This document shows, in pieces, positions 1 to 23,044 of a stretch of DNA of 23,565 nt. The stretch covers positions 1 to 23,565 of IMG/VR virus record IMGVR_UViG_3300044858_001566; one strand, written 5' to 3'. Position 1 is the first letter of the stretch. The number at the start of each line of letters is the position of its first letter. The DNA comes from a virus. Position numbers and translations under genes: made by a program. The notes beneath the pieces are model-generated. The model saw only the letters and a program-made list of their open reading frames with translations, ran no database searches and was not told the origin of the DNA.

Positions 1-3000
1 TTTCTGGAGATAATGCTGAAAGAATCAAGTGCTTTTTCCAAAGCTCCTCCGCTTACAGATCCACGCCTTGCTCTGGAAGCCCGCAATCTATTTAGTCGAT
101 CCACAAAGAAGTCACGATTGGCTTTGTCGCCAAAGAACTCCACCGATTCTGGGGTCTTCATAAAGGCGAAGATCTGCTGCCAAGCAGGGTTGGTATAAGC
201 CTTGTTAATCTGATCGGACAAGCTATTGAATGCGGCGCGCCGAAGATTGAATTCAATTTCTTTAGGGTTGCCGTCCTTGTCTTTAGGAAGCTTTGTATAG
301 TCTTGACGCTTGATAGTGTAGACAGATTGCTTTGGTTGCAGCGAAATAGAATTGGCAATGCTCACATCTTCTGGGCCAAGAGCCAAAGCTGGGCCAGCCG
401 AAGTGAAGGCAATCGGAAGATAGTTGGGGCTATCGTAGTTGTTAGCCTGATCGTTGAAGTTCTCATCAAACTGTTTGAGGAAGTCTTTGTATTTCGGGAA
501 CAGAACATCCTTATACCACATGAGAGAATCATAGTTCGGGCGGTATTCGCGCTTCATGTTGTTCAAGATCTCTTGAACAGAAGCCCCATCAACTTTGTTT
601 AGGATTGCCTCAACGCGATCTGCCATAGCCACACGGTCTTTCTGGCGCGACTCACGGGCATTGGCGATATATTCATTGATCAGGTTTCGGCGTTGCTGAA
701 TTGAAGTTGCTTCATCCTTGAACGGAAATTCTTGGATCAAGAATCCAGCCACACCTTCAGAAAGAATGCCGTCTTGATTGCGGGCTGCGTCACCGTATGT
801 CTTTTCGTTGCCTTGGTGGAACTCTGCCATCAGATCTTGTATTTCATCAATGGTGTTATTGGCCTTGGTGAATCCCTCGTTCAAATCCAACATGCCCATC
901 ATCTCGTAAGCCTTGGCCATGAAGTCTTTTCCGAAGACGTTGCGGAAGGTGTCGGCTACCGATTGCAATTCCAAAGAGAAGTTGCGAAGGGTTTCCTGAA
1001 GTTTCAAAGATCCGAATGAAGGAATAAGAGGAATCCAAGCCTTGTTGCGTTGGATCATTTTTGAATCCTGTGCCGCCTTGCGAGCGTTCTGCTGACCCTT
1101 GGCTGTAGCCACAAAGTATTCCGCGCCATTGGTCTGATTGTTGTAAATCATATTGTTGGCAATACGAATAAACATTTGCTTCTCTTGGTTATTGATGGAT
1201 TTGAGATCCACACCAAGCATTGACTCGACCAATTTCTTTTGAGTGTTGGTAAGCGCGGTTGTGTCGTAGCCGCGCAACCCGTCTTGGGTTTCGATTGCTT
1301 TGTCTGTAAGGATGGACTCCAAGGCTTCGCGATTCTCCCTGCCTTCAATTTCTTCAATGATGTTGATAAGGCTCATCAACTCTGGAATAGTATTTGGATC
1401 AAGGTCGTATTTGCGGGCAAGCCTTTCATTGGTCTCGCGCTCCACCTCGGCCCGATCCTTAACAGACTCTGTTTCCAGTTGAGAAATGTAGCCCGTGATT
1501 TCTTCATCAGGAACAACCACATAGTCAGGAGAACGCACATCCTTGAATCCGCGCAAGTAGTAGTTGATCATCTCGGCAAACATGCGCGGATCATCCAGCT
1601 TGTTAACTGCGACATTTCCGATCTGCTGGAGAATTAGACGCTGCGGACTCATGGCGACTTTCTTCTGTTTGGAAAGTTCCTTGGCGCGTTTCTGTGCTGC
1701 CTTGGCCTCGCGAAGATCGGCATCATAGTTGGCGTTCTCTACCACCTTGGCAGCGTATTCGACAAAGCTCTCCATGGACTTCTCGCTCGTCCAGATTACT
1801 TTGGCTGCACGTTTGGCTAGGGCTTGGGCTTGTTTCGGGCGCACGGGGCCGCGAAGTTCCATGGATTTGATAATCTCAACCACCTCATCTGCGGTGCGTT
1901 GCTGCTCCTGCTTTGCCGCACGATTGGCTGCTGCCTTTAGACGAATTTGACTTTTAAGCAATGCCTTTTCATCACCAGTAATCTTAACTGGTTTAACGCG
2001 CACACCCATAAATACATCAAAAAGGCGTTGCATGACGGGGCGCGGACGATCAGGATCAACTTCTTTTGGAAGTGTTACACCTTCGGGCAAGGCTTCCACC
2101 GAAACACCAGCAGGAGTTTCAAGGAATGCTGTCTTAATAGATTGTTGGATATCGTATTGCTTGGCAATGGCATTGGCCACCTTCTTGGCATTGGCTGGGG
2201 TTAGGTTGGTATACTCCACTACCATGTCTTGGAGTTGGCGGGTATCTCCACCTTGATCCATCCAGACAGAGGCTATCTCGCTGATCTTGTAGGTGGGTTT
2301 GTTTTCGGGGTTTGGCTTGGCCTCGGACGCCGCATCCACCTTGGCCATAGATGCTGCCATGTTAGATAGGGTTGCAGCTTCTGGACTTGTGGTTTCAAAT
2401 GTTGGGAACCGTCCAGCTTCTTCTCCACCAAGGGCCATGAAGCGATAGTCATCGCGCTTTCCGTATACGGGATTCTTGGCAAGAACCATGCCGCCAACTT
2501 GGACAACCTCTTCCGCCGAAACCACAGGACTCTGCGTGTCCTTGTCGTAGAAGTATGAGTGGCGAATCGGGTTCATTCCAATCTCTACCCATCCCTCAGA
2601 TCTTCCGCGATTAGCTAGATCGTAGGCTTGTTGCGCGGTCATGGGCACATACGAACCCTTCATTGTGGCTATTGTTGACTTGGGTTTTCCTGTTGCAATG
2701 TTAATTGCCGCTGGCTCGGTCACCCCAAATTCCACATTTCTCAATACCGCTGTTGGCGTGTAGGCAATAACCTCGCCTGCCGCTCCCTTCTGGAGGTTTG
2801 GTCTCGGCTTATGCATAGAGACCACCCAGACGTTCTCATTCTCGTATGCTGGAATATCTAACCTCGACTCAACAATTGTTCCCTCGCTAATTGATTCTGG
2901 GTTTTGAGCCAAATCTCTCTTGAGTATCTGTGTCTCTGTGCCAGCGGCATCTTTTCTAGTAATTGTTCTGTTTCCTAATCCGCGATCAATGTCAGACCTT

Positions 3001-6000
3001 GACGCTGGAACTGGAATGTTCTCAAACTTCGTAAGCGGCATCCGAAGATCGACAATCCTTTGATATTCGTCGCGGTCAATCTTACCTTCCTTCAAGTCCA
3101 TGGCGGCTTGGGTTATGATCGGATCACGCTCTGTTCTGGTATACCGAATGCGATCCAGCACATCCTCCGCATAGTTGAAGTTTTGCGGTTGATAGATTTG
3201 GAATGGCTCCGCAACCGAAGACATCCGATATAGGTTTAGCTTTTGCTTGGGATCGGTGATGGTCTGATAGAAAGATTCGTAGGAATCCTTGCCCAGCTTC
3301 GCCTTGATGAGATCTAAGAAATCCCGAATCACCTTGGCGATCTTGCCCATGAAGGTGTTGGGAACTGCCTGCTTGCTTCTTACCAAGTCGGTCATCTTCT
3401 CGGCAATCCACTCATCCAACATGATGTAGCGGTAGTTGTCCGCATCATATTTGATTTGGTATTTGACGATCTTGCCATCGCGATCCTTTACTGGCTGAAG
3501 TTTGGTTTCGGCCTCCTTGGGGTTGAAGAGTTTGTATTCCTCAAACTGTTCTGGGGTTAGGCTGTAGCGTCCGACAAAGGCGAGGAACCAAGGATTCTTC
3601 TTAAGGTATTCGGCAAGGTTCTTGGTGTAGTCTTGGCGCATCTGCTCGACTTCGGAGTCTGGCAAGAAGCGGGAAAGCCCGTGGAAGAACTCATGGATGC
3701 CGACTCTGGCTCCAGTGGCGGGTTGGTCTTGGTTGAGGAAGAAGCTGACTAGAGTTTCACCAAAGTTAAAGTTACTCACCCCGCCCTTGCGGATGGATAG
3801 CGCGGTGTCTCCGATAGCGTCTTCGCGGATGCGGTTGACAAAGTCTGTTAGTGCTTGCGCGGTTTCTTCGGAGATTCGGCCAGCCGCCCTCTCCCTAGAA
3901 AGACGATCCAAGATTGCCGCCTTGCCCCTAGCGCGGGGTTCCTGACGCCTTGCTGCTTCACGTTGAATGCGATCCCGCAACTCCTGAGATTGCTTGATAA
4001 CCTTGTTGACCGCCCGTAATGGCCCATCCGTTCTGCCAGCCTTGATGTCCTCGACTACTGTGGTGATATCGTATCCCAACGGATTAAGTCTTACGTCCTC
4101 CTTGCGGGATTCTCTTGCTTCGGGGGCTGCTGGCGGCACATAGATATCTCCATCTAGCGTCCATCCCGTTGGTAGCGTGACGTTCGGCCCCACCTGATCG
4201 ACCCCGATACGAAGACCCTTCGCGATGGCTTCGGCTACTACTTCGTTTGATCCTGTGTCGATTTGGATCTTTCGGGCTTCGGGGTTCAACCTTGGGCGCT
4301 CGGCCTCTGGCAACGTCTCTAGACCCGCTTGCGTGATCACTGGTTGCCCATTGTATAGCTCGACTAGTCCTTGACCGACCAACCCCGAAACATCGTCTTC
4401 TGTTTGTTCTGCTCTTGCTACTCGGCGTAGAGGTTCAAGATTCGGGGTTTCGGGGGTCGGGCTTACTCCCTCTGGAGTCGGGGCTACCTCGACGGGAGGA
4501 GTCACTGCGGGCGTGGGAGTAAGCGTAGGAGCAATGTCGGTAGGAGAGATTTCTTCTGGCGGGGTTTTCCTCCCAAGAATTTCGGTCATTGCATCCACAG
4601 AGTCATTCCAGTCTTGGTTTTCTCTGTTTATGGTATCGATCTCTTCTTGAGTTAGTGTTTCATCAGTAGCCTTGAACCATCCCTCAATAGTGTTATTTGT
4701 TTTGCGCTTTCCAGACTGTATCGACTTTAATACGGATTCGGCCTTTTGCGTCTCTCCGCGCTCGTTGAATGCCAAATAAAGTTTTCCAAGATCGGTCAAT
4801 TCTTGATCGGAAACTGGTTTTGTTGTGAGTTTAATTTTTTCCCACCGACCAAAATCCGCATCATCCAGTTTCGCCGCATCCCGCCATCCAAGTTCAACGA
4901 CTTGTTTGTTATATTCTCCATATTGATTTAAAAGATTGCGCTGCTCTTCTGTAAGGTTCTCCCTCGTCGCATACATTGAGTTGAACGAAGAGATGTTATC
5001 AGCACCAAGTCTTTTTGCTTCTGCATCCAATTCGGACTTTCTTGTAAGCAGGGATGAGGCGGGAGTCGGGGCAGCGGCTGGTTCCGTAGGTGTGACAATG
5101 GTGGGCTCTACATCTGTCCTTACCTGATAGCCGTAGCGTTCCGCGATTTGTTCGGGTGTTGGGTTGCTCTGGAGGAAGGTATACTCCTCGGTCTCTTGGG
5201 TAGTGAAATCCTCCACTCCCGCCTCATCTTTGTCTTGCAGTTCCTTTAGACGGTTCCTCGACGCCGACTCAAACCACCTAGCAGACTTGATTCTTTCAGG
5301 GGGGAACCCCGAAACAGAAGGCTCTTCTTCTAGTTCTATTCCTGCTGCTGCGGTAGCTTCTTCTTGGAGACGGGCTACTCGCTGTTCGGGGGTTTCCTGA
5401 ACAGTCTCAGCAATGATGGCATCGGCTTGTCTGGCTACTGTTTCGGCGCTCGCGGGAGCAATATCCTTATTAGCCTCAGAAGACACCTTGGCTTTGGCTG
5501 CGGCATTTTCCTTGGGATTGCCAGAGATAAATCCACCAACCCCGCCAATAGCCCCGCCGCCCAGACCCCCCAAGGCGGAAGCATTGATGTATTCATTGAT
5601 AGCCTCATCACTAAGGATATCTTTTCCTGCACCAAAACGCTCTCCAACGGTTTGAACGGCTTCGGTTGCCGCCTCACCAACAGTTCCGATACCGCCAGCC
5701 ACCGCCGCGCCAGCCAGCCTTCCAGCAGGAAGCTTGTCTGAAAGTTTACCCTTCAAAAGATCCAATCCAAATTTATCAACAACACCTTCCAATCCGCCAG
5801 TGGCAACACCCGTTCCCCAGATACGGGCCAAATCAACTCCAGTAAGCTCGCGCCCCTCTGCTCTCGCCTGTTCCTCGGCAGATCCGTAAATAGAACCAAG
5901 TTGCATACCGACAGCATTGGCAAAAATGGCGGCATTTGATCCAATCTCTTTTCCAGCCTGACGCTTGACAGCTTCTTGAGATGCGCGTTTGGCTAATTGC

Positions 6001-6701
6001 TCGGCAGTTAGTTCAACGCCTTCTTTTTGGGCCTGTTTGGTGACAATCTTGGTTGCCTGATTAGCAATGGCCTTCTCAACAAGATTTTGGGCAAGAGCCT
6101 TGAATCCTTGTTTTCCAGCCGCCGCTGCTACTGCGCCACCCGCCGCCGCTGGAACGGCTGTTGGGCCACCAGCCGCACCCGCCGCACCACCAGCTATACC
6201 GCCTAATACAGCAACCGCCGCCGTCTCTCCAAGCTGTCCAAGAGCGTAGCCAATTCCATATTGTGCCCAATCCACCAAAGCCCCAACATCTCCTTCTTTT
6301 GCGCGTTGCCAAGCCACCGTAACATCGTCAGTTTCCTTGGAGATTGGCTCCATGCTTTGCGCCCAATCTTGGTATCCCTTGAATCCAAAATCCCGAAGAC
6401 TTTCTCCGTAACCTGTAAGCTGTTCTGCGGTTTCACCGACCAACCCCGCAACCCCGTAAGCCAACTGCGGAACTTGCCGCATCGAAACCTCAAAACCTCG
6501 GAGTGTGTCCCAGCTATTATCTCTTGGAGGCTCTATTTCTAGAGGCTCTTCTTCGATGTATTCAATCCTTCCGCCAAACTCTCCAGAGGGTTCTGGTGCG
6601 ACTGGCTCAGAAATGCCAGCCACGGGCGGTTGCTCTACAGGAGTAGTGTCCGCCGCTTCTGTAATATCCTCTTCGATATCATCTAGATATTCTATCGGCA
6701 T
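1..6701 (-). CDS. Giant polyvalent-type virion protein with metalloprotease motif (3' end outside window)
   Basis: I read one open frame from the ATG at 6701 down to base 1 without a stop, at least 2233 residues; the C-terminus is off the left edge. The start overlaps the upstream stop as TAATG. The N-terminus (1-60) is acidic and Pro-rich. Gly/Ala-rich hydrophobic stretches lie near residues 160-196 and 335-390 and could insert in a membrane. A Pro/Thr-rich linker lies near 720-745. Residues 1003-1007 read HEFFH, a zinc-protease HEXXH motif, and DEWIAE at 1096-1101 could supply the third zinc ligand. Segments near 1370-1410 (GMNPIRHSYFYD, EEVVQVGGMVLAK) and the Tyr/Pro-rich C-terminal part resemble polyvalent proteins of tailed phages, which are thought to be packaged and injected with the DNA. 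A charged, probably coiled-coil stretch lies near 1570-1700. Inferred role: an ejected internal virion protein acting in the host envelope or cytoplasm. The frame and HEXXH are certain; family assignment is from memory. Confidence 0.88.
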   Translation of the reverse strand, partial: MPIEYLDDIEEDITEAADTTPVEQPPVAGISEPVAPEPSGEFGGRIEYIEEEPLEIEPPRDNSWDTLRGFEVSMRQVPQLAYGVAGLVGETAEQLTGYGESLRDFGFKGYQDWAQSMEPISKETDDVTVAWQRAKEGDVGALVDWAQYGIGYALGQLGETAAVAVLGGIAGGAAGAAGGPTAVPAAAGGAVAAAAGKQGFKALAQNLVEKAIANQATKIVTKQAQKEGVELTAEQLAKRASQEAVKRQAGKEIGSNAAIFANAVGMQLGSIYGSAEEQARAEGRELTGVDLARIWGTGVATGGLEGVVDKFGLDLLKGKLSDKLPAGRLAGAAVAGGIGTVGEAATEAVQTVGERFGAGKDILSDEAINEYINASALGGLGGGAIGGVGGFISGNPKENAAAKAKVSSEANKDIAPASAETVARQADAIIAETVQETPEQRVARLQEEATAAAGIELEEEPSVSGFPPERIKSARWFESASRNRLKELQDKDEAGVEDFTTQETEEYTFLQSNPTPEQIAERYGYQVRTDVEPTIVTPTEPAAAPTPASSLLTRKSELDAEAKRLGADNISSFNSMYATRENLTEEQRNLLNQYGEYNKQVVELGWRDAAKLDDADFGRWEKIKLTTKPVSDQELTDLGKLYLAFNERGETQKAESVLKSIQSGKRKTNNTIEGWFKATDETLTQEEIDTINRENQDWNDSVDAMTEILGRKTPPEEISPTDIAPTLTPTPAVTPPVEVAPTPEGVSPTPETPNLEPLRRVARAEQTEDDVSGLVGQGLVELYNGQPVITQAGLETLPEAERPRLNPEARKIQIDTGSNEVVAEAIAKGLRIGVDQVGPNVTLPTGWTLDGDIYVPPAAPEARESRKEDVRLNPLGYDITTVVEDIKAGRTDGPLRAVNKVIKQSQELRDRIQREAARRQEPRARGKAAILDRLSRERAAGRISEETAQALTDFVNRIREDAIGDTALSIRKGGVSNFNFGETLVSFFLNQDQPATGARVGIHEFFHGLSRFLPDSEVEQMRQDYTKNLAEYLKKNPWFLAFVGRYSLTPEQFEEYKLFNPKEAETKLQPVKDRDGKIVKYQIKYDADNYRYIMLDEWIAEKMTDLVRSKQAVPNTFMGKIAKVIRDFLDLIKAKLGKDSYESFYQTITDPKQKLNLYRMSSVAEPFQIYQPQNFNYAEDVLDRIRYTRTERDPIITQAAMDLKEGKIDRDEYQRIVDLRMPLTKFENIPVPASRSDIDRGLGNRTITRKDAAGTETQILKRDLAQNPESISEGTIVESRLDIPAYENENVWVVSMHKPRPNLQKGAAGEVIAYTPTAVLRNVEFGVTEPAAINIATGKPKSTIATMKGSYVPMTAQQAYDLANRGRSEGWVEIGMNPIRHSYFYDKDTQSPVVSAEEVVQVGGMVLAKNPVYGKRDDYRFMALGGEEAGRFPTFETTSPEAATLSNMAASMAKVDAASEAKPNPENKPTYKISEIASVWMDQGGDTRQLQDMVVEYTNLTPANAKKVANAIAKQYDIQQSIKTAFLETPAGVSVEALPEGVTLPKEVDPDRPRPVMQRLFDVFMGVRVKPVKITGDEKALLKSQIRLKAAANRAAKQEQQRTADEVVEIIKSMELRGPVRPKQAQALAKRAAKVIWTSEKSMESFVEYAAKVVENANYDADLREAKAAQKRAKELSKQKKVAMSPQRLILQQIGNVAVNKLDDPRMFAEMINYYLRGFKDVRSPDYVVVPDEEITGYISQLETESVKDRAEVERETNERLARKYDLDPNTIPELMSLINIIEEIEGRENREALESILTDKAIETQDGLRGYDTTALTNTQKKLVESMLGVDLKSINNQEKQMFIRIANNMIYNNQTNGAEYFVATAKGQQNARKAAQDSKMIQRNKAWIPLIPSFGSLKLQETLRNFSLELQSVADTFRNVFGKDFMAKAYEMMGMLDLNEGFTKANNTIDEIQDLMAEFHQGNEKTYGDAARNQDGILSEGVAGFLIQEFPFKDEATSIQQRRNLINEYIANARESRQKDRVAMADRVEAILNKVDGASVQEILNNMKREYRPNYDSLMWYKDVLFPKYKDFLKQFDENFNDQANNYDSPNYLPIAFTSAGPALALGPEDVSIANSISLQPKQSVYTIKRQDYTKLPKDKDGNPKEIEFNLRRAAFNSLSDQINKAYTNPAWQQIFAFMKTPESVEFFGDKANRDFFVDRLNRLRASRARRGSVSGGALEKALDSFSIISR

Positions 6702-9540: not shown

Positions 9541-10326
9541 TTATTGCTTGAAAAGTAAATCCGCCGAAGCCCCGCTTCCAACCCATGGCAAAAACTGTTT
9601 AAGATCTTTTACGGGCCACTCCGTATTGTTTTGTAGTCTCTCCCAATCCTCGCAGGCATTCTCGTATCCACCTTTGTATATACGTTGTTTCTGGGCTACT
9701 TGTTGCGGGGTCACCCATGCCATGTGCAGGATCTTGCCGACAGTCATTAAGGTCTTGCTGCGATCCAGTAGTTGTCCGCGATTACCATTGAATACGGGTG
9801 GTTCATGGCGCTCCATCCAAAGCCCGACATTATAGCGCCAAGCCCGAACCCACTCATTTTTTCTATTGCCGTAACCATCTGTGGATGTGGATTTTACGTT
9901 AGGGCCAAGCATATAATCCATTTCAAACTGAGCGGTATTTGTTTCGGGGTTTGCGGCGAATAGCTCGACCAATCTCCGCATTTGTTCCTCAGTCCACAAT
10001 TCATCGCTATCCATTTGGAGTAAGACGCCGTCTTTCTTGAAGGCGGTCAACGCCGCATTGATCATTTCTGTCTTACCACCCCATTCGGATTTGGAATTGA
10101 CCGTGATTCTGGGATGGGGCGCTAGGGCTTGCAGAAACTGATGGGTGCCATCATGGGAGACTTTCCCTGTCTGGTTACCCATCCAAGCCGTGTCCTTCTG
10201 AGGCATCGCCGCCCCCTCGACAATCGACCAATGCCAGTCGGCATCCCTTAATCGGCACAACTCCGCAAACTGAGCCCCGATCCACGGAGAGCCATCAAGG
10301 ACAATTGTGAAGATGTTGAGGGTCAC
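9541..10326 (-). CDS. Family 2-like glycosyltransferase (GT-A fold)
   Basis: A protein of about 261 residues. The start LNIFTIVLDG is a typical first beta strand of a GT-A fold, followed by SIVEGAA and, near residues 106-108 (counting from the GTG), the metal-binding D-S-D within GVLLQMDSDELW. The likely role is transfer of a sugar from a nucleotide-sugar donor onto a phage or host acceptor. I chose the GTG at 10326 because it overlaps the upstream TGA as GTGA. A TTG four codons earlier (10338) has a better Shine-Dalgarno (GGGAG), so the start is uncertain. No membrane segment is seen. The acceptor is unknown; the Ser/Thr-rich protein at 13085 is one candidate, with no direct evidence. Confidence 0.82.
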   Translation of the reverse strand: MTLNIFTIVLDGSPWIGAQFAELCRLRDADWHWSIVEGAAMPQKDTAWMGNQTGKVSHDGTHQFLQALAPHPRITVNSKSEWGGKTEMINAALTAFKKDGVLLQMDSDELWTEEQMRRLVELFAANPETNTAQFEMDYMLGPNVKSTSTDGYGNRKNEWVRAWRYNVGLWMERHEPPVFNGNRGQLLDRSKTLMTVGKILHMAWVTPQQVAQKQRIYKGGYENACEDWERLQNNTEWPVKDLKQFLPWVGSGASADLLFKQ

Positions 10327-10547
10327 AGCCCGTCCCAAAGATCTCCCTGACCAAGCTCGTCTAGATATTCTCCAAATGTCACCATCTTCTGGTCGTTGTA
10401 AACGTAATCAAACAGATGATCTTTAAGCTCTCCATCACCCAATTCAAGCTCAAAGCACAATGACTCAAAGTAGGCGTCCTGAACCCTTGAAAGTTCATTA
10501 ACAAAGTCTTTGACTTTGAAGATGCCATCTTCTGGATGTGGCTTCAT
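10323..10547 (-). CDS. Small acidic protein of unknown function
   Basis: A 74-residue acidic protein with many Asp, Glu, Leu and Phe/Tyr residues, probably mostly helical. No family is recognised. Its ATG overlaps the stop of the preceding small basic gene as ATGA (10544-10547) and its TGA overlaps the GTG of the glycosyltransferase as GTGA (10323-10326). This double overlap supports it being a real gene within a translationally coupled operon. No motif indicates a function. Confidence 0.7.
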   Translation of the reverse strand: MKPHPEDGIFKVKDFVNELSRVQDAYFESLCFELELGDGELKDHLFDYVYNDQKMVTFGEYLDELGQGDLWDGL

Positions 10548-11949: not shown

Positions 11950-12228
11950 CTATGCTGCTATTAGTTGGTTGTTGTTGCTTGACTTCGGCGTTTGGACGCC
12001 CAAGATTTTACAGATGTATCGGATGTGGAAGCACTCTTTACGGAATTGATAGCCTGAACAAGTGCAGGAACACCCTGTGATATCCCCGACCTCATCGGTA
12101 GCGAATTCCACCATGTAGTAGTCTTCGCGATTTGTCCGACTTTGAACGAGGAATGATCCCTTATCATGCGACAGAATTTCGATGCCATGGTTTTGGCTGG
12201 AATCTCCGCGCTCTCGCTCATTAGTCAT
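11950..12228 (-). CDS. SWIM zinc-finger protein
   Basis: A 92-residue protein. Residues 53-68 read CSCTCSGYQFRKECFH, which fits the SWIM zinc-binding pattern CxC...CxH (Cys 55, Cys 57, Cys 66, His 68). The N-terminus (about 15-50) is predicted beta strand. SWIM fingers bind DNA or proteins and occur in helicases, transposases and Rad51-regulating Shu-type proteins; in phages stand-alone copies are usually of unknown role. The ATG at 12228 overlaps the end of the preceding gene by eight bases. Its place between an SSB-like gene and a Cas4-type nuclease suggests a recombination or replication accessory, but this is inference. Confidence 0.85.
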   Translation of the reverse strand: MTNERERGDSSQNHGIEILSHDKGSFLVQSRTNREDYYMVEFATDEVGDITGCSCTCSGYQFRKECFHIRYICKILGVQTPKSSNNNQLIAA

Positions 12229-12877
12229 TCGCTTGTGGACTGTTCAGGGATTCGGCCTTGCTTGCCCCAAAGCCCAGTTGTTCGGGGGTGTATGCCGTGA
12301 TTGGCATGGCTTGAATGAAGCCCTGTCTATCCGCTTGGATAAACATCGTCGTTGCTATTCCCTGACGATGCTGTTCTGGAAGGTTTAGCTCTACCGCAAT
12401 GTCGTTGGCCTTCTTGACGCACAGACGCATCAGATTTGCCGCCTGACATAGGAATTGCTTGGCATCCTTATCTGGGTGGGGCGGAGCCGTAACAACCTTT
12501 TCTGCGGGCTTCTGGGGCGATTGAGAGGTGTTAATGGTGTTCCATGTAACGGGCTTCGATTGAGTGGGGGCCGCAGGCAGACTGGAAGCGGGAACCCCAG
12601 CAGGCTGGATCTCCATGGAATCGGTCTTCTGCTTGGAGTTACCAGAGGCAATGAGTACTACGGACTTGCCAACATATTGCTGGAACTTCGACGCAATGTC
12701 CTTATTCTCAGTGAAATACACATGGGCCACACCATCAACAATCAACTCAATGACACACAATGAGTTGTTCTTCACCCACTTAGGGGGCGATTTAACGGCT
12801 ACGAGTTTGGGCCCATTCTTGGCCAAGGTGAAGTGTGAGAGGACTGGAGCTTTGGGTTGGTTTGATTGATATGCCAT
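12221..12877 (-). CDS. Possible ssDNA-binding or annealing protein (uncertain)
   Basis: A 218-residue protein in three parts. Residues about 1-95 are predicted beta-rich (NNSLCVIELIVDGVAHVYF, GKSVVLIASGNS), compatible with an OB fold. Residues about 96-140 form a Pro/Ser/Thr/Gln-rich linker. Residues about 140-205 form a helical tail (KQFLCQAANLMRLCVKKA, then TTMFIQADRQGFIQAMP) of a type seen in phage proteins near replication genes. No family is matched with certainty. It is the first gene of the leftward operon, about 15 bases from a promoter-like sequence and near a terminator. An ssDNA-binding role is inferred from shape and from the nuclease and SWIM neighbours. Confidence 0.7.
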   Translation of the reverse strand: MAYQSNQPKAPVLSHFTLAKNGPKLVAVKSPPKWVKNNSLCVIELIVDGVAHVYFTENKDIASKFQQYVGKSVVLIASGNSKQKTDSMEIQPAGVPASSLPAAPTQSKPVTWNTINTSQSPQKPAEKVVTAPPHPDKDAKQFLCQAANLMRLCVKKANDIAVELNLPEQHRQGIATTMFIQADRQGFIQAMPITAYTPEQLGFGASKAESLNSPQAND

Positions 12878-12891
12878 ATAGGTAGATGTTC

Positions 12892-12918
12892 GTTATATCC
12901 GACACCCCAACTTGTCAA
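12892..12918 (-). promoter_or_regulatory. Sigma-70-like promoter for the leftward operon starting at 12877
   Basis: On the minus strand TTGACA (12918-12913) is followed after 15 bases by TATAAC (12897-12892). The -35 is a perfect consensus and the -10 is close; the spacer is shorter than the usual 17. The predicted start of transcription would be near 12885, leaving only about 8 bases before the ATG at 12877, so the message would be nearly leaderless. It directly follows the terminator at 12925-12960 in the leftward direction, as expected for an insulated new transcription unit. Confidence 0.6.
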
Positions 12919-12924
12919 GCGTTC

Positions 12925-12960
12925 AAAAAAAGCGGGGCCGAGTTTTTGGCCCGACCCCGC
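12925..12960 (-). terminator. Rho-independent terminator, leftward
   Basis: On the minus strand GCGGGGTCG pairs with CGGCCCCGC (one T-G wobble; 9 base pairs, 12960-12952 with 12940-12932), with an 11-base loop and seven T residues immediately after (12931-12925). The plus strand has no T run after the hairpin, so it acts only on leftward transcription. No leftward gene ends here; it lies between divergent genes, so it probably stops transcription that comes leftward across the antisense of the 13085-17604 cassette. Confidence 0.75.
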
Positions 12961-13084
12961 CCCACACACATGAAAACAGGAAGACGAATGCCTTCCGATT
13001 GGCAATCTAGCATGATCATTAACCATTGCAAGCGGAAAATCATCTTGCCGCCCAACCTTTTTTAGAGTAAGTTTTCGGGATTCT
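12961..13084. promoter_or_regulatory. Divergent intergenic region with operator-like dyad (13002-13029)
   Basis: The upstream region of the plus-strand cassette holds no convincing sigma-70 promoter. It contains a dyad centred at 13015.5: an 8-base palindrome ATGATCAT (13012-13019) and, five bases out on each side, GCAAT (13002-13006) and ATTGC (13025-13029). Both layers share exactly the same centre, giving a 28-base operator-like site. GCAAG (13029-13033) and CTTGC (13045-13049) form another short inverted repeat. A repressor or activator could bind; the helix-turn-helix protein at 17601 is a possible candidate, with no direct evidence. A 31-codon frame from 12970 was not accepted as a gene. 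Confidence 0.4.
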
Positions 13085-14971
13085 ATGGCCACTGAATACC
13101 CTCCTTTAGGCAAACCTTTTGTTGCCGAGTATCGCTATGGTGATCGGGGCTTTCCCGTTATCCACATCAAAAAAGACCCAAGGGTTGAAAACTACAGGGC
13201 ACCTGAAGTCGGAGATCCCTGCCCAGACAAAAGATTTCCCGACCATACTTTTATCCAAGCCTTGCCCACCAACTCTGACGAGAGGGTTCTATGGGTTTAT
13301 GAAAAACTAGACGGCCCTCAAATTAGCGGACAAATCATTGATAGAGACGGCAACATAGCCACACTTACTCGCCAGCCCGTTGTCTCAGGAAGCTCTGTTG
13401 ATCAAGGATATAAGGTTCTTTCCAGTTCGATCAATCCCGAAAACAAAGCCTTCGGAGTCAAGGAAACTATTACAGTTGATGAATTTCCCGTTCTTCGTGG
13501 TGTTCAGATTGATCCTCGCTACGGAGTCGCGCTGGAATACACCAAAGAATTGGTAGATGCCGAAACCGCCGAAGGTGGGGTAGACGGGCTTGAGTCTGTA
13601 GAAATCGAACCCAAGGATCAATGGAGATCTTGGAAGCTTACCACAAAGCTCGCGCAACTTCCACAGGATCAGGTTTGGTATGGTTACCGCAAGGAGGCGT
13701 TTCCCGATGTCTTAACTGGTCTAACAATTGTTGGCACTGAGAATTACCAGCCCGTTCCCACTTGGAGGACGGCTCCCGACATGCCATTCAAGGCCCGTTA
13801 TACCCGCAAGTTTAGCCTTGGCCCCCCTCCCGAACCAGCACCAACCTTGTCCCCACGATACTGGGCTGAACCATTTTATTTTGCCGTAGAATATTTGCGA
13901 GAATCTGAAAGCGAATCAGAAAGCGCCTCGTCTTCTAGAAACTCTGGTTCCAGTTCGTCAACCAACTCTTCCACACAATCATCTGCATCTTCTGGCACAA
14001 GTTCCTCAACATCTTCGGGAACTAATAGCTCTACCAACAGTGGAACATCTTCTGGAACAAACTCGTCTACCAACAGTGGATCGGCCTCTGGAACATCGTC
14101 TTCCACAAACTCTGGAACCAATAGCTCTACCAATAGCGGAACACAATCTTCAAGCGGATCTGGGACATCATCTTCAACAAATAGTGGGACAAGCAGTTCT
14201 ACGAATTCTGGAACGGGCTCATCTACATCTAGCGGGACTAATAGTTCTACAAATTCGGGGACAAACTCATCAAATCAAGTAAGTAGCGGTATTGGCGGCA
14301 GTAGCACAACCGAAAGCGAGAACGGCGGGGCGGCATTAGTGGGTGGGCCAACTACCAACAGGGCATCTAGCTATACCTCGACAACTGAGGGTAGTGGCTC
14401 AAGCTCTTCAAGCAACAGCGGAACGCAGTCTGGAACAAACTCTGGAACAAATTCATCCACAAATTCTGGCACAAATTCTTCAACTAATTCTGGCACAAAT
14501 AGTTCCACAAGCAGCGGAACAAGTAGTTCATCAAACAGCGGAACAAGCAGTTCGTCTGGCAGTGGAACAAATAGTTCTACATCAAGCTCACAAAATTCTG
14601 GAACATCAAGTGGAACTCAATCATCCACTTCTAGTGGAACATCTTCTTCAACATCCAGCGGAACTAGCGAATCTACATCAGTTGGAACAAGTGAATCAAC
14701 CTCCGAAGGAACCAGCGAATCTGTCAATCAATCCGAATCTGAAAACGCGACTGTTTCGCGAGGAAAATCAATCTTTAATCTGACCCTTCCAAAGTGCCTT
14801 AGATCCGCCATTAATGTCGCACTGCCTAGCGGAGAAGCTTTTACAATCCCCGCCACTCGCCAAACCGATCTCAATTGGGGCAACTATATAGAAGTGGCTC
14901 GTCAAAGCGAACACTGGAAACAAGGCATTTGGATTACTGAAATTATTGAAGTTTACTTGCCGCAAATTTAA
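13085..14971 (+). CDS. Ser/Thr-rich repeat protein, probable tail or surface structural protein
   Basis: A 628-residue protein in three parts. Residues 1-270 form a mostly beta domain with many Pro and aromatic residues and no recognised family. Residues about 273-555 are low in complexity: an ESESESESAS stretch leads into variants of SGTNSSTN/SGTSSSTS, interrupted around 398-434 by a Gly/Glu-richer insert. Residues about 556-628 form a compact C-terminal domain ending WITEIIEVYLPQI. No signal peptide, LPXTG or membrane anchor is seen, which argues against a bacterial adhesin and for a virion component. It starts the plus-strand cassette; the only ribosome-binding hint is CGGGA. The Ser/Thr region could be a flexible stalk or carry O-linked sugars. 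Function is inferred from composition and neighbours. Confidence 0.82.
   Translation: MATEYPPLGKPFVAEYRYGDRGFPVIHIKKDPRVENYRAPEVGDPCPDKRFPDHTFIQALPTNSDERVLWVYEKLDGPQISGQIIDRDGNIATLTRQPVVSGSSVDQGYKVLSSSINPENKAFGVKETITVDEFPVLRGVQIDPRYGVALEYTKELVDAETAEGGVDGLESVEIEPKDQWRSWKLTTKLAQLPQDQVWYGYRKEAFPDVLTGLTIVGTENYQPVPTWRTAPDMPFKARYTRKFSLGPPPEPAPTLSPRYWAEPFYFAVEYLRESESESESASSSRNSGSSSSTNSSTQSSASSGTSSSTSSGTNSSTNSGTSSGTNSSTNSGSASGTSSSTNSGTNSSTNSGTQSSSGSGTSSSTNSGTSSSTNSGTGSSTSSGTNSSTNSGTNSSNQVSSGIGGSSTTESENGGAALVGGPTTNRASSYTSTTEGSGSSSSSNSGTQSGTNSGTNSSTNSGTNSSTNSGTNSSTSSGTSSSSNSGTSSSSGSGTNSSTSSSQNSGTSSGTQSSTSSGTSSSTSSGTSESTSVGTSESTSEGTSESVNQSESENATVSRGKSIFNLTLPKCLRSAINVALPSGEAFTIPATRQTDLNWGNYIEVARQSEHWKQGIWITEIIEVYLPQI
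13906..14735 (+). repeat. Degenerate Ser/Thr/Gly/Asn-coding repeat array
   Basis: About 830 bases encode short units related to TCT-GGA-ACA-AAT-TCT-TCT-ACA-AAT with many synonymous changes (AGC, AGT, TCA, TCC and TCG for Ser; GGA, GGC and GGG for Gly). The protein pattern is kept while the DNA has diverged, so selection acts on the peptide; the array is coding and is not a CRISPR. It is split near 14276-14400 by a less repetitive insert. Length change by recombination between units is likely. Confidence 0.9.
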
Positions 14972-14973
14972 AC

Positions 14974-15573
14974 ATGAAAAAATACGAAATAGTTCTTGCC
15001 AGATATTCTGAGCAAATGAAATGGTTGAAATATATTCCTAAAAAAGAAGAAAGAGATTATTCAATTTATTTGTCTAATTCTGGGGATGAAACCCAAAATC
15101 CCAATGTTGACAAAGAAGTAATGGTGGAAAATATTGGACGAGAGGCTGGTCATTATCTTCAGTATTTAATATCAAATTATGAAAATCTTCCAGATGTTGT
15201 GGTTTTTCTTCAAGCCGAACCTTGGCCTCATTTTAATCAAAAGGTTGAAGTTCTAATGGAGTTGCTTTGGGGCAATCCAAGATTTAGGTTTCCATTATGC
15301 TACATTGGAGAAAGTTACAACGAAATAGGTCTGCCTATTGAAAAGCACTCATTAAAAGAGGCAATTCTAAAAAAAGGATGGGGCGATCAACAGATACCAA
15401 AATCAACCAGAATGGCAATCGGAGCGCAGTTTTATGTTAAAAAAAACATTATCCTCAAACGTTCAATATTACATTATCAATCAATTTTAGATTGTCACAA
15501 TTGGGACGGAATTTCCTTGGCGCACATTTTAGAACCGCATTGGGCAAGCGTGTTTGACCACGAATCAAAATAA
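14974..15573 (+). CDS. DUF3431-like protein
   Basis: A 199-residue protein. It begins KKYEIVLARYSEQMKWL and continues with IYLSNSG, then VENIGREAGHYLQYLISNYE and LPDVVVFLQAEPWPHF. This order (ARY-x-WL near the start, N-x-GRE-x-YL, then LPD-xxxFLQ-x-P-x-H) is that of DUF3431, a family found in fungi, algae, bacteria and viruses, and its fold is probably related to glycosyltransferases. The gene is AT-rich relative to the neighbouring genes, suggesting separate acquisition. It starts two bases after the repeat protein and its stop abuts the next ATG (TAAATG), so it is part of the cassette. Its biochemical role is not known; modification of a surface glycan or of the neighbouring Ser-rich protein is speculation. 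Confidence 0.78.
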   Translation: MKKYEIVLARYSEQMKWLKYIPKKEERDYSIYLSNSGDETQNPNVDKEVMVENIGREAGHYLQYLISNYENLPDVVVFLQAEPWPHFNQKVEVLMELLWGNPRFRFPLCYIGESYNEIGLPIEKHSLKEAILKKGWGDQQIPKSTRMAIGAQFYVKKNIILKRSILHYQSILDCHNWDGISLAHILEPHWASVFDHESK

Positions 15574-16833
15574 ATGAGCGACATTCTTTCAGGTGGAGTC
15601 ATAGACGAAACAACGTCTGGCCCTATTCCTACATCTCAAGACAATCGGTCTTTGGACATTATTGCCGAAGCGGCAGCGAAACAGGAACGCGAGGCTATTG
15701 GTGGAAGCCAAAATCCACCCACCGTAGAACCTCCGCCGACAGTTCCACAACCGCCTGAAGTAGCGCCTCCTCCACTTCCAGAAATCGACATTCCCCAACT
15801 TGGAATTGATTTTGGTGGCCCTGTATACGAAAAAGCGGCGGAAGCAGCAAGGCAGGCCGCTGTGGATGTTCTTAAAAAAGTTACCATTGACGGGATGGGG
15901 CCAGTAATTGAGGGCTCCTCAATCTCATTCAATACATCAAGATCACCATCGGCCAGCGATTCTTTTAGGGCCGCAGAAAATTCAGATCCATTTCAACCGA
16001 GATATGGAAACCTGTCTGACTATTCTGTTTTTGAAGCGCAAAATATTGCAATTCAAGGAATTAAAAATGAAGCAGTAGAAAATAAGGTTGATATTTCTTT
16101 TACAAAAGCAGCAGAAAATCGCGAACAGGCAAGAAAATCGGGGAGCATTTCTTTTGAAGACGCCTCCAGAAACCGCGAAGAAGCTAGAAACGAAAGCCGC
16201 ACCGAAACATCAGGACAGCCAAGGGTGGCACAACGAGAAAGAGATGGCGATATATCAGAACTTCCTAGCGGGATGATTCCCGTAAGACTTACTAGGGCGG
16301 ATGGACAAAAAAAGATTTTGGCATATCTTGCTTCAGAGTTTGTTGGAGTTGTTGATGGGGCTGGCGGCGGGGAAAGGACAACAAGTTTGCCAGCAAAAAG
16401 CGATTATTATGAAGCTGGCGGAGGAGGCAGTGTCCCTCCTCATCCTTGGCAAATCAGGCTAACCACCAACGATGAAGGTGAAACACTTTATCTTGTTGAA
16501 TATAACAGTAATCTTTATGCGGGGCTTGCATCCTATGCAAATGTAGAGGTTACGGGCCTTGATTCCGCATCTTTCATCAGCGTTGGGTATGTTGTTCTAA
16601 CTGGAACTGTTGTAAACTTAGCGTGTAGCGGAGCCAATGTGTCTATTAACAGTGTCCTTCCAGAAAGAATTAAGTTTAGTGGAGATACTCAGACAGAATT
16701 TTCAGTTATAATTGGCTATCTTTATCAAGATGAAAGCGAAGCTTGGAATGTCAGACAAAATGCATTTCACAATTTCACTTTAACAAATTTTTGTATTAAT
16801 GGAAAACCCGCAATCTATCCAATAGCTACTTAG
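15574..16833 (+). CDS. Probable tail-fibre or virion surface protein
   Basis: A 419-residue protein. Residues about 45-75 are Pro-rich (EPPPTVPQPPEVAPPP). Residues about 80-230 are helical or disordered and include an exact 18-residue tandem repeat unit (174-191 and 192-209: ISFTKAAENREQARKSGS and ISFEDASRNREEARNESR). Residues about 280-419 are beta-rich (WQIRLTTNDEGETLYLVEYN, SVIIGYLYQDESEAW) and end with FTLTNFCINGKPAIYPIAT, a type of end seen in phage tail-associated proteins. No signal peptide is seen. It follows the DUF3431-like gene directly (TAAATG). Position and architecture (Pro-rich hinge, helical stalk, beta tip) suggest a fibre or receptor-binding protein. No family is matched with certainty. 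Confidence 0.75.
   Translation: MSDILSGGVIDETTSGPIPTSQDNRSLDIIAEAAAKQEREAIGGSQNPPTVEPPPTVPQPPEVAPPPLPEIDIPQLGIDFGGPVYEKAAEAARQAAVDVLKKVTIDGMGPVIEGSSISFNTSRSPSASDSFRAAENSDPFQPRYGNLSDYSVFEAQNIAIQGIKNEAVENKVDISFTKAAENREQARKSGSISFEDASRNREEARNESRTETSGQPRVAQRERDGDISELPSGMIPVRLTRADGQKKILAYLASEFVGVVDGAGGGERTTSLPAKSDYYEAGGGGSVPPHPWQIRLTTNDEGETLYLVEYNSNLYAGLASYANVEVTGLDSASFISVGYVVLTGTVVNLACSGANVSINSVLPERIKFSGDTQTEFSVIIGYLYQDESEAWNVRQNAFHNFTLTNFCINGKPAIYPIAT
16093..16200 (+). repeat. 18-codon tandem duplication inside the fibre-like gene
   Basis: Two consecutive 54-base units (16093-16146 and 16147-16200) encode ISF-xx-A-xx-NRE-x-AR-xx-S-x. The peptide is about half identical with the NRE-x-AR core exact, while many bases differ, so the duplication is old. 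Such units commonly lengthen fibre stalks. Confidence 0.75.
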
Positions 16834-16839
16834 AACATC

Positions 16840-17604
16840 ATGGCAAGCGTCACACAATTAGGGCTGTTTAGTGGGTGTCCCGAAAATTTGGCTACTCTAC
16901 TTGCTATCGGGAACCGTCTTTATCCAAACTTTTCCCTTGCGGATACATTGGCATTTTATTGGAGAGTAAAAAGATGGAAGTTTTCATTCAGTGGATCTTG
17001 GATAGAGGATAATAGACCAGACCCTGTAACCTTCAGCTATTCTGGTGAGTGGAGCTTTTCTGTTGGACAGATTGTGTTTAGTGATGAGAACATTCCGCTT
17101 GGGCAAGCTGTTTATGGCGTCATACCTCAATCCGAAACAAAACTTATTTGCGGCGTCGATCCAGTCGATGTGTCATTTCCGAATGAAGACAATCCCAACG
17201 GGCCTCCGTTCGTTGTGACATATCACCACCATGCCTTTCTGGACGCCCGTCAAAGAGTCGAGCCCGATAACGGTATAAGAATTGGGGTTATTATTGATGG
17301 GGGGGCGCTTTACAGAGAACACAATGGCGGGCTATTGTTTGCGCCAAATATCTATCTAAGTATAAATACTACTCGCTGGCTCGCCGTTGCGAACGAATCG
17401 TATGGCGTAATTTACGGAGCATTGTCGATAAATCTGATTGGAAAAAACTTTACCGTTCCTATTAGTGCAATGAATACCCGTAACAGTACAACGGCCTCCT
17501 TCAATGCAACCTTGGAAGCCGAAGAATACTGGCCCTACGACCCACAGGATGGCGGCGGCCCCATCTATGATAGTTCCACTGGCGCTCAATTACGAGATTT
17601 TTAA
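16840..17604 (+). CDS. Beta-rich virion-type protein of unknown function
   Basis: A 254-residue protein, predicted mostly beta strand with many Trp, Tyr and Phe residues (AFYWRVKRWKFSFSGSW, FSYSGEWSFSVGQIVF). It has no signal peptide or membrane segment and matches no family that I recognise. It begins six bases after the fibre-like gene. Its TAA (17602-17604) overlaps the stop of the convergent helix-turn-helix gene on the other strand, with no room for a terminator. Position suggests a tail-associated or receptor-binding protein or a chaperone of the preceding gene; this is inference. Confidence 0.72.
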   Translation: MASVTQLGLFSGCPENLATLLAIGNRLYPNFSLADTLAFYWRVKRWKFSFSGSWIEDNRPDPVTFSYSGEWSFSVGQIVFSDENIPLGQAVYGVIPQSETKLICGVDPVDVSFPNEDNPNGPPFVVTYHHHAFLDARQRVEPDNGIRIGVIIDGGALYREHNGGLLFAPNIYLSINTTRWLAVANESYGVIYGALSINLIGKNFTVPISAMNTRNSTTASFNATLEAEEYWPYDPQDGGGPIYDSSTGAQLRDF

Positions 17605-17891
17605 ATCTTGGGCCTGACAAACTTAATGTCTCTGGTTTTTCCAGCGTAAAACACTTTCTTTTTGACCGTTTCAAACCTTCCCTCGCGAACCATGTTATAA
17701 ATGCGGGGACTTGAAAGACCAGTTTTTTGTATTACCTGATCAACCGTCCTCCACCCATCGGCGTTCATTGCCTCAATGGTGGTTTTCTGGTTGTCTGTAT
17801 CAAATGAATTCCAGACGCTATCCCAAGACTGGATTACAATTTTAGGAGAGGAGCCTTTTGTTCTACGAGTTTTGCTATGTGTTGTTTCCAT
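17601..17891 (-). CDS. Small helix-turn-helix DNA-binding protein
   Basis: A 96-residue protein. The N-terminus is basic (HSKTRRTKGSSPK). Residues about 42-75 (GWRTVDQVIQKTGLSSPRIYNM) form a helix-turn-helix followed by a beta-hairpin-like VREGRFETVKKKVFYAGK, as in winged or excisionase/MerR-type domains. It is probably a transcription regulator or DNA adaptor. The ATG at 17891 lies 58 bases inside the phosphoesterase gene; a later ATG at 17771 would remove the overlap but would cut away the basic N-terminus. No clear ribosome-binding site supports either. It ends exactly at the convergent junction with the plus-strand cassette. Confidence 0.75.
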   Translation of the reverse strand: METTHSKTRRTKGSSPKIVIQSWDSVWNSFDTDNQKTTIEAMNADGWRTVDQVIQKTGLSSPRIYNMVREGRFETVKKKVFYAGKTRDIKFVRPKI

Positions 17892-18631
17892 GAGAATGTG
17901 CCTTTGTCTACGGTGAAAGTGATGAAGCCGAAGTCCACCTTACCAGAACAACGTCTGGCTCCGAATTTACTCCCTGCCCCTTGGAGGGCTGGGGTGGTCA
18001 TGGCGATCCAGTCTGGGCCTCCCGCAAAATTGTGATAGTGGACATGGCTGCGAATCAAAACGTCAGCTTTGGTCTGCTCTCCTTCTGCTGCGAGGATTGA
18101 GTTCCATAGGCGGTCTTTGGCAACTCCCATATGCCGTCCGTGAGGTAAGGACGAGCTTCCTGCTGGGTGGTGTTTAAGATCGAAGACGATTCCTTCGACT
18201 TCAACCCATGCATGGTCGGTCACCGTAGCTCCGACTCGTTCTGCGATAATATTCTCCCAATCCTCCCCATCACTGGAGGACACATGATACGGGGTTCCTC
18301 TAGTGATAACGATCTTGCAATTTTTAGTCTTCGGAACCATACGGATGATCTTAGTAGCCATATCCGACTGATCCTCCATGTCGGGCGCTAGAAGTTCCGT
18401 AGATCCGCTTTTCTTACCCTTGCCATCCACCAGATCCCCATTAACGAAAACAATGTCGTATGGGCCGTTGCGGGCAATCTCACGGGCATACCATGTCCAG
18501 TGGGCTTTGTTGATCTGCGCCCAGAGGGGAATCTCCCCATTTTCATCTTTTTCTGGCAACCAGCCCGTAGGGGTTAATCCGACACGATGGCCGCAGTGGA
18601 AATCCGAGAGGACTGCTATTTTTTTGCTCAT
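17834..18631 (-). CDS. Calcineurin-like metallophosphoesterase
   Basis: A 265-residue protein. Motifs in order are SDFHCGH (Asp 10, His 12), VNGDLVDG (Asp 66), TRGTPYH (111-116, in place of the common GNHD/E), HHPAG (154-155) and SHVHYH (195-200, the GHxH-like end). This is the arrangement of calcineurin-like phosphoesterases, which use two metal ions to cleave phosphodiester or phosphomonoester bonds. In phages they occur as nucleic-acid repair, RNA-end or cyclic-nucleotide enzymes; the substrate cannot be read from the sequence. The start overlaps the previous gene stop as ATGA, so they are translated together. Confidence 0.85.
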   Translation of the reverse strand: MSKKIAVLSDFHCGHRVGLTPTGWLPEKDENGEIPLWAQINKAHWTWYAREIARNGPYDIVFVNGDLVDGKGKKSGSTELLAPDMEDQSDMATKIIRMVPKTKNCKIVITRGTPYHVSSSDGEDWENIIAERVGATVTDHAWVEVEGIVFDLKHHPAGSSSLPHGRHMGVAKDRLWNSILAAEGEQTKADVLIRSHVHYHNFAGGPDWIAMTTPALQGAGSKFGARRCSGKVDFGFITFTVDKGTFSWKQHIAKLVEQKAPLLKL

Positions 18632-22348: not shown

Positions 22349-22377
22349 ACTATAAAATTAAATTGCAGCCATTGTAA
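22349..22377 (-). promoter_or_regulatory. Weak candidate promoter before the lysis cassette
   Basis: TTACAA (22377-22372) and TATAGT (22354-22349) on the minus strand are separated by 17 bases. The -10 is good (5/6) but the -35 is poor, and the region is AT-rich, so this may be chance. It would give a transcript for the lysis genes starting at 22333. Confidence 0.22.
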
Positions 22378-23044
22378 CATTTCCAGTATAGCCATTAGAT
22401 CCAGAATATAATCCAATAGGATTTATGCTGCCAGATTTAAAAAATAAACCAGATGTGCCGATTGTTCCAATTGGAGCAATAATCCAAGCAGCAGCAATAT
22501 ATGTTAACCAATAAACATTAGTTTCATCATAGTATATCGGTTGCCCGTTTTGAGTTAGTCCACTATCATAAAATCTAAAACCATTTATATTTGGAGATAA
22601 ACCCACTCCACTTGCTATATATAAATAATCAACGAGAGGCTCTTGCTCCGTCAAACTGGTAATAATGGATGCGACCTTGTATCGCCAAGGCCAGTCAATA
22701 TAGGTGGCTAGGTTTGCGGGGTTGCCCGTGTCTCCGCGATAGGCGGCGGCAATATGCCCCAAAGCCTGCTTCTCACTCCAGTCAATAGTCCCAAGGCTCG
22801 ACCCCGAAACCGCATCATAGATAGCCTTCCATACATATTGTTTAGGAAGAGATATGTAATCTGCTTCGCTTCTGGGTGCGCCTGCGGCTACGGCAATCTT
22901 GGCCCAGAGATAATGTTCTGGAAGAGTAACGTAATTGGCTATAGATCCAGATCCCAACTCCCCCACAAGCCATTGGGCAAGCATATACTTTCGGGGCTGA
23001 TCCGCCGCCGAAGCAAAAACCGCATCTAAAGTAGGGAGAGCCAT
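22358..23044 (-). CDS. Repeat-containing virion protein with probable receptor-type C-terminus
   Basis: A 228-residue protein. Residues about 37-131 hold three related units of the form [N/D/T]Y[V/I]-xx-P-xx-Y-xxxx-I (NYVTLPEHYLWAKIAVAA, DYISLPKQYVWKAIYDAV, TYIDWPWRYKVASIITSL), a kind of repeat seen in phage structural proteins. Residues about 140-228 form a beta domain (NGFRFYDSGLTQNGQPIYYD, IYYDETNVYWLTYIAAAWII, IGLYSGSNGYTG) resembling small glycan- or receptor-recognition domains of phage fibres. The C-terminal part is clearly more AT-rich than the repeat part, suggesting domain exchange. It lies between the small acidic gene and the lysis cassette. Function is inferred. Confidence 0.75.
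   Translation of the reverse strand: MALPTLDAVFASAADQPRKYMLAQWLVGELGSGSIANYVTLPEHYLWAKIAVAAGAPRSEADYISLPKQYVWKAIYDAVSGSSLGTIDWSEKQALGHIAAAYRGDTGNPANLATYIDWPWRYKVASIITSLTEQEPLVDYLYIASGVGLSPNINGFRFYDSGLTQNGQPIYYDETNVYWLTYIAAAWIIAPIGTIGTSGLFFKSGSINPIGLYSGSNGYTGNVTMAAI
22652..22936 (-). repeat. Three-unit peptide repeat in the fibre-like gene
   Basis: Three units code for the pattern Y[V/I]-xx-P-xx-Y-xxxx-I (residues about 37-54, 62-79 and 113-131). The DNA similarity is low, so the repeat is ancient and visible mainly in protein. Confidence 0.6.

Follow-up and report, generated by a model that had tools for sequence, protein, structure and literature searches.

The DNA analysed here, called the window below, comprises the entire IMG/VR virus record IMGVR_UViG_3300044858_001566, 23,565 bases long. 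Its plus strand carries a cassette of four tightly spaced open reading frames at positions 13085-17604, which we name C1 to C4 in order; the minus strand holds all credible genes on either side. We consider it probable that this cassette serves an uncultured lineage of tailed (probably short-tailed) phages as an exchangeable distal-tail module, and that the two Ser/Thr-rich arms of its lead protein, C1, form a giant β-hairpin within a tube or fibre. C1 (13085-14971, 628 residues) is a putative tail tube or fibre subunit. It is followed by C2 (14974-15573, 199 residues), a DUF3431 protein and possible glycosyltransferase; C3 (15574-16833, 419 residues), a predicted partner protein with a conserved N-terminal motif and a C-terminal β-type domain; and C4 (16840-17604, 254 residues), the variable last gene. 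The intergenic gaps are 2, 0 and 6 nt.

A fixed site with exchanged content

Scanning with the flanking phosphoesterase yielded 80 relatives. In 46 of these, the sequence holds both the HTH gene that bounds the cassette on the right (17601-17891 in the window, minus strand) and the SSB-like gene that bounds it on the left (12221-12877, minus strand; the name is a guess that no library supplies). These 46 spanning relatives are not independent and include some near-duplicates; they contain 38 distinct C1 sequences. An opposite-strand block lies between the two boundary genes in every one of them, at a constant site and in a constant orientation, and in all 46 it is led by C1 on the SSB side, with about 78 N-terminal residues common to all. 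Such regularity shows that the layout did not arise by chance. The block ranges in size from 3.3 to 9.3 kb, and the cassette reading frames of the relatives fall into 58 protein clusters. Similarity in the variable part of C1 is nearly uncorrelated with similarity in the flanking genes (r = 0.09 with the phosphoesterase gene, r = 0.02 with the SSB-like gene). The two flanking genes themselves correlate at just r = 0.29, and the whole genome is therefore mosaic. Different cassettes are found in L022 and L023, with phosphoesterase genes that are 98% identical at the nucleotide level, and in L006 and L007, with 97% identity; the cassette nearest to that of the window, from L051, belongs to a genome with a phosphoesterase gene only 70% identical. 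Cassette content reassorts independently of the flanking genome.

The preliminary description of this DNA had proposed an exchangeable module of four rightward genes in a leftward region, beginning with a serine-rich repeat protein and a DUF3431 protein, and all of this is borne out. It had also named the pattern that would speak against exchange, the same four genes always fixed in place; what we find is half of that, a fixed site and orientation with exchanged content. A unit that is mobile or invertible within the lineage is not supported: presence, position and orientation agree in all spanning relatives. No inverted repeats were found at the cassette boundaries, and no reverse transcriptase (RVT_1) was matched in nine related records, some of them incomplete. 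On these grounds we rejected both a site-specific invertible cassette, within the lineage of the window, and the target of a diversity-generating retroelement. Because neither a reverse transcriptase nor boundary repeats were found, we infer that cassettes are exchanged by homologous recombination, with the conserved leader and the N-terminal part of C1 as the crossover region at one end and the HTH and phosphoesterase genes at the other.

Some additional variation was noted around the site. The phosphoesterase gene (17834-18631, minus strand) occurs as types only about 70% identical among genomes that are otherwise alike, which again points to mosaicism. In L018, L037, L049 and L105 the leader between C1 and the SSB-like gene is interrupted by HNH-type endonuclease genes, which might promote cassette exchange. 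In nine of the 46 relatives (L023, L028, L034, L039, L040, L041, L063, L064, L078) two added genes on the flank strand lie beside the HTH gene, one encoding a 142-residue cupin of the sugar-epimerase type and the other a 344-residue protein without Pfam match that looks glycosyltransferase-like by eye. These two genes always accompany an unusually large last cassette gene (602-702 residues).

Arm symmetry and periodicity in C1

Tested as a module, C1 shows a conserved anchor and a variable distal part. The putative virion anchor is the N-terminal domain (13085-13324, residues 1-80 in the window), common to the C1 of all 46 spanning relatives. Beyond it, two builds are found. Canonical C1 grows by tandem domains of about 116 residues, and its length follows the motif count with r = 0.977. 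In Ser/Thr-type C1, which includes the tandem-repeat C1 of the window, a Ser/Thr-rich stretch, some 300 to 1180 residues long, takes the place of the added domains.

In the window C1 and 18 homologues, this stretch consists of two Ser/Thr-rich arms around a short non-repetitive tip. Arm 1 of the window (13895-14266, residues 271-394) and arm 2 (14399-14740, residues 439-552) are matched in length and have Ser or Thr at alternate positions. The tip between them (14267-14398, residues 395-438) contains GAALVGGPTTNR; homologues have GAPLVGDPxxNR-like sequences, and Ser/Thr-type C1 proteins read side by side often show G-A-P/V-x-x-x-D-P-x-x-x-R. The C-terminal domain that follows (14741-14968, residues 553-628; PKCL ... 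QSEHWKxGIWITE) is conserved across several phage groups in their Ser/Thr-type C1.

Three landmarks served to measure the arms: the final V/I-E-Y ahead of the repeats, the point where the tip motif starts, and the P-K-C-L that follows the repeats. In the discovery set of 11 proteins, with left arms of 127 to 575 residues, the arm difference was -10 to -12 residues in nine. A second set of eight proteins was found by a search with the C-terminal domain alone, after the pattern had been defined; all eight gave a difference of -10 to -13 residues (r = 0.9996). Combined, 17 of 19 proteins show a near-constant offset of -10 to -13 over arm lengths of 127-586 residues. The change in length between L116 and L120, for example, is 156 residues in each arm. 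Because the tip motifs had been picked by eye, we added an automated tip call, which gave r = 0.989 and a mean asymmetry of 0.024; 100,000 random placements of the tip gave none that was equally symmetric. In L107, and likewise in L125, one arm is built from a different repeat unit than the other, and the symmetry is therefore not a simple duplication of one arm.

Alternation of Ser/Thr with other small residues is significant in both arms of ten of the 11 discovery proteins, the window included (p <= 0.0004), and in this set the phase of the Ser/Thr face, counted from either landmark, is constant throughout. In the second set, alternation reaches significance in both arms only in L135, L141 and L153. 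Of 17 proteins, 13 have a left arm whose length is 3 mod 4, and same-residue matching across the arms is highest when the shift is 0 mod 4, a four-residue period that leaves no unique register. Equal arms and alternation are what an in-register antiparallel β-hairpin would need, and a disordered spacer would need neither; the two features together therefore look like the signature of a giant hairpin of this kind. As a fact about sequence the arm symmetry is strong, and the hairpin is the structure that we propose for it. This symmetric build lies beyond what the preliminary description could see, and a search of the open-access literature returned nothing relevant on Ser/Thr hairpin tail proteins.

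Structure prediction for canonical C1

An AlphaFold model of the canonical C1 of L071 has a mean pLDDT (predicted local distance difference test) of 72; residues 270-700 are mostly at 80-93 and part of the protein is poorly modelled. Long hairpins are predicted at residues 497-541 and 591-630. The second is rich in Ser/Thr and, judged by eye, sits where the Ser/Thr stretch of the window C1 is inserted. The top fold matches of residues 480-682 are MACPF and gasdermin proteins, at a level below confidence (Foldseek E = 5e-3 only, VIA-align Z <= 6.6). These are pore proteins that form rings with β-hairpins. A viral structure library returned one strong match to the model, an uncultured phage protein; its matches to levivirus maturation proteins, at E = 0.01 and weaker, were not taken as meaningful. 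Searches of the PDB with C1, DUF3431 and g324 profiles gave nothing credible, and a Pfam search of all 36 C1 proteins gave no family. C1, C3 and C4 of the window are likewise without a family in Pfam or PHROG (best E for C3 and C4 not below 0.2).

The DUF3431 gene

C2 matches Pfam DUF3431 (PF11913) with E = 1.3e-16 and 61.5 bits, against a gathering cut-off of 25. In the first set of cassettes, a DUF3431 gene adjoins 12 of 16 Ser/Thr-rich C1 genes and none of 37 others (Fisher p = 7e-9, relatedness ignored). Within the window lineage it is present in all six Ser/Thr-type cassettes found (the window, L012, L051, L055, L105 and L114). The eight second-set proteins (L135, L136, L137, L139, L141, L153, L154 and L155) have no DUF3431 gene beside C1. 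The gene is thus restricted to Ser/Thr-type cassettes, yet not required there. The model of C2 is poor (pLDDT 54.8), and its best fold matches are glycosyltransferases, only at E = 0.015 and weaker; C2 may glycosylate exposed Ser/Thr residues of the arms. Surface modification, suggested in the preliminary description, is possible through this gene only. A pattern scan of bacterial genomes for DUF3431 returned 20 matches, none of which was confirmed, and the three open-access papers found to mention it give no function in their abstracts. Through the link to C1, this family, which lacks a cellular role so far, would gain one.

C4 differs among relatives, but in several of them last cassette genes that are otherwise unlike share a C-terminal motif of about 31 residues (EYWPYDPQDGGGPIYDSSTGAQ-like; noted for the window at 16747-17604).

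Gene context in other phage groups

Scans with C2, the N-terminal part of C1 and the C-terminal domain of C1 reached other phage groups, in which C1, C3 and C4-type genes are collinear with a downstream g324-like gene. Relative to that gene, the cassette of the window lineage is inverted; the inversion that the preliminary description proposed to look for is thus seen against distant lineages and not within the lineage itself. In L121 the gene order is portal, scaffold-like gene, major capsid protein, a 222-residue gene, and C1-C2-C3-C4. The portal is an SU10_portal (E = 1.3e-24) and the capsid protein an SU10_MCP (E = 3.9e-36). T7-type phages have their adaptor and nozzle genes at this point, after the capsid gene. 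The 222-residue protein has no family match, though the gene order fits adaptor-then-nozzle. Since the same genes follow portal, scaffold-like and capsid genes in L121, the cassette genes are most likely virion tail genes, and the adsorption or tail role suggested earlier is to that extent likely.

In two relatives the contig begins and ends with the same sequence, and their genomes are therefore complete at about 70-73 kb. No close relatives of the window DUF3431 and g324 genes were found among 50,697 phage records, and the same records held no match to the terminase, portal-like protein, C1 N-terminal part or g324 homologue of one relative. The exonuclease and a deoxyribosyltransferase-like gene match many phages at <60% identity, which identifies no clade.

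Proposed assembly and alternative explanations

In the assembly that we propose, the two arms of C1 would pair antiparallel as a single giant β-hairpin. On its own, a two-stranded ribbon this long would probably be unstable, so several C1 copies would have to join their hairpins, as a barrel or tube or as a shaft or fibre. The resulting hollow β-tube or fibre would carry the tip away from the capsid, and its length would be set by arm length; canonical C1 would alter length otherwise, by adding domains of about 116 residues. C3 and C4 would be tail proteins that partner C1, and exposed Ser/Thr may be glycosylated by C2. With 0.33 nm for each residue, the arms of the window (about 115-125 residues) would reach no further than about 40 nm and those of the longest homologue (about 570 residues) no further than about 190 nm, with any strand tilt shortening both. 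A more specific version can be put forward tentatively: Ser/Thr-type C1 would be a new kind of tail tube, a ring of subunits contributing one Ser/Thr-x hairpin each, with a barrel length written in the matched arms in four-residue steps, unlike a tape-measure protein, and an outside perhaps coated with sugar by the partner enzyme in some phages.

The most serious competitor, which we regard as quite possible without preferring it, is that C1 is a fibre or adhesin, for instance a trimer with hairpins packed in a shaft, and does not conduct DNA, the cassette being an ordinary receptor-binding module. The constant N-terminal and variable distal parts of C1, its large length variation by tandem domains and the reassortment of the cassette would all suit such a protein. 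They have to be set against the presence of C1 in all 46 site-spanning relatives, its position in L121 after the capsid and 222-residue genes (the place of adaptor and nozzle genes in short-tailed phages), and the existence of separate tail-fibre-like genes elsewhere.

It is unlikely, in our view, that the arms lack order and act as mucin-like, glycosylated spacers keeping the tip off the virion, with equal length incidental or under loose selection. The low-complexity Ser/Thr/Asn/Gly composition, the DUF3431 association of the first set and the weak glycosyltransferase-type matches of C2 fit this idea. However, a spacer has no need for near-exact arm equality over a 4.5-fold length range or for strict alternation in constant phase, and the eight symmetric proteins of the second set do without an adjoining DUF3431 gene. 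Accessory (moron) genes with no place in the virion, whose products would act on the host surface, for example in superinfection exclusion, or a horizontally gained island, are very improbable despite the opposite strand with its own leader and terminator context, the lower G+C in C2-C4 and the possible sugar-modifying genes in nine relatives, as the cassette is absent from none of the 46 spanning relatives and lies within the head-tail gene run in L121.

Several observations count against the giant hairpin and the tail module. The sequences are metagenome assemblies and phylogenetically non-independent. Two proteins with near-perfect tandem repeats, L107 and L125, are asymmetric; in the near-identical contigs L106/L107 and L123/L124/L125 arm 2 alone differs, and assembly collapse of tandem repeats is the likely cause. 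In L110, L136, L137, L139, L154 and L155, at least one arm shows little or no periodicity. The modelled C1 is the canonical protein of L071, not the Ser/Thr form, and the model has no confident match in the PDB. The placement of C1, C3 and C4 in the virion is predicted from synteny. Finally, adsorption need not rely on the cassette, because tail-fibre-like genes lie elsewhere in the genome of one complete relative.

Comparison with known systems

A tail module with a fixed site and reassorted content is a known theme, and the symmetric Ser/Thr protein is the new element. The nozzle proteins of short-tailed phages (T7 gp12, SU10 gp17) resemble C1 in the possible position of the latter in L121, after the capsid and a putative adaptor, in a genome with SU10-type portal and capsid. 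Once SU10 has attached, its nozzle makes the tail 28 nm longer (PMC9509320). C1 differs in having no sequence match to solved structures and no identified propeller domain; Ser/Thr hairpin arms and length variation on this scale are not described for nozzles. Alteromonas phage A5 is reported to have a host-recognition module common to otherwise different phages (PMC10579305). The cassette is similarly exchangeable, here with a conserved anchor and variable distal content, and differs in being inverted relative to its flanks and in the unfamiliar build of its lead protein.

A third comparison is with the serine-rich repeat adhesins of Gram-positive bacteria, which have dedicated glycosyltransferases. 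C1 shares with them Ser/Thr repeats beside a possible glycosyltransferase gene, but it is a phage protein with two length-matched arms around a tip, and export and cell-wall anchoring are not expected. We found no description of a protein in which low-complexity arms stay matched in length while the whole varies more than fourfold. If the hairpin is real, C1 would be a phage tail part with its length encoded directly in repeat number, its homologues would offer structural work a set of naturally occurring length variants, and structure would have been readable from 'disordered-looking' Ser-rich repeats with nothing but the symmetry of their sequence. Looking for a tip between two equal arms is a general test that can be applied to other repeat proteins.

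Cassette boundaries and neighbouring genes

The cassette is separated from the SSB-like gene by a divergent intergenic leader of 207 bp (12878-13084), which was aligned in 36 relatives and the window; it is present in all of them, with long conserved stretches. The leader contains a strong predicted intrinsic terminator on the minus strand (12925-12963, -23.9 kcal/mol, with a T tract), conserved in the alignment, and a promoter-like TTGACA-15-TATAAC on the minus strand before the SSB-like gene (12892-12918), read by eye and with short spacing. At the opposite end, the stop codons of C4 and the HTH gene overlap. On the simplest reading, the two minus-strand operons would be driven separately, and antisense transcripts crossing the cassette would end at the terminator in the leader. 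The control of its own that had been suggested for the cassette is consistent with this arrangement on its left side.

To the left of the cassette, the SSB-like gene is accompanied by a sub-threshold SWIM-like zinc finger and a PD-(D/E)XK exonuclease; to the right, the HTH gene is accompanied by the phosphoesterase gene, which is of the calcineurin-like type. The G+C content is about 0.38-0.42 across C2-C4 and about 0.5 in most of the record. A very large minus-strand gene (3-6701) crosses the left edge of the window; its homologues in near-complete relatives encode 2,728 to 3,556 residues and may be ejected internal virion proteins. A family-2 glycosyltransferase gene (9541-10338, minus strand), barely over the cut-off of Pfam PF00535, is present in many relatives. 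The 228-residue gene at 22358-23044 (minus strand) has a conserved start and is otherwise variable, with matches in relatives that often span merely 40-140 residues, and may be a second variable site.

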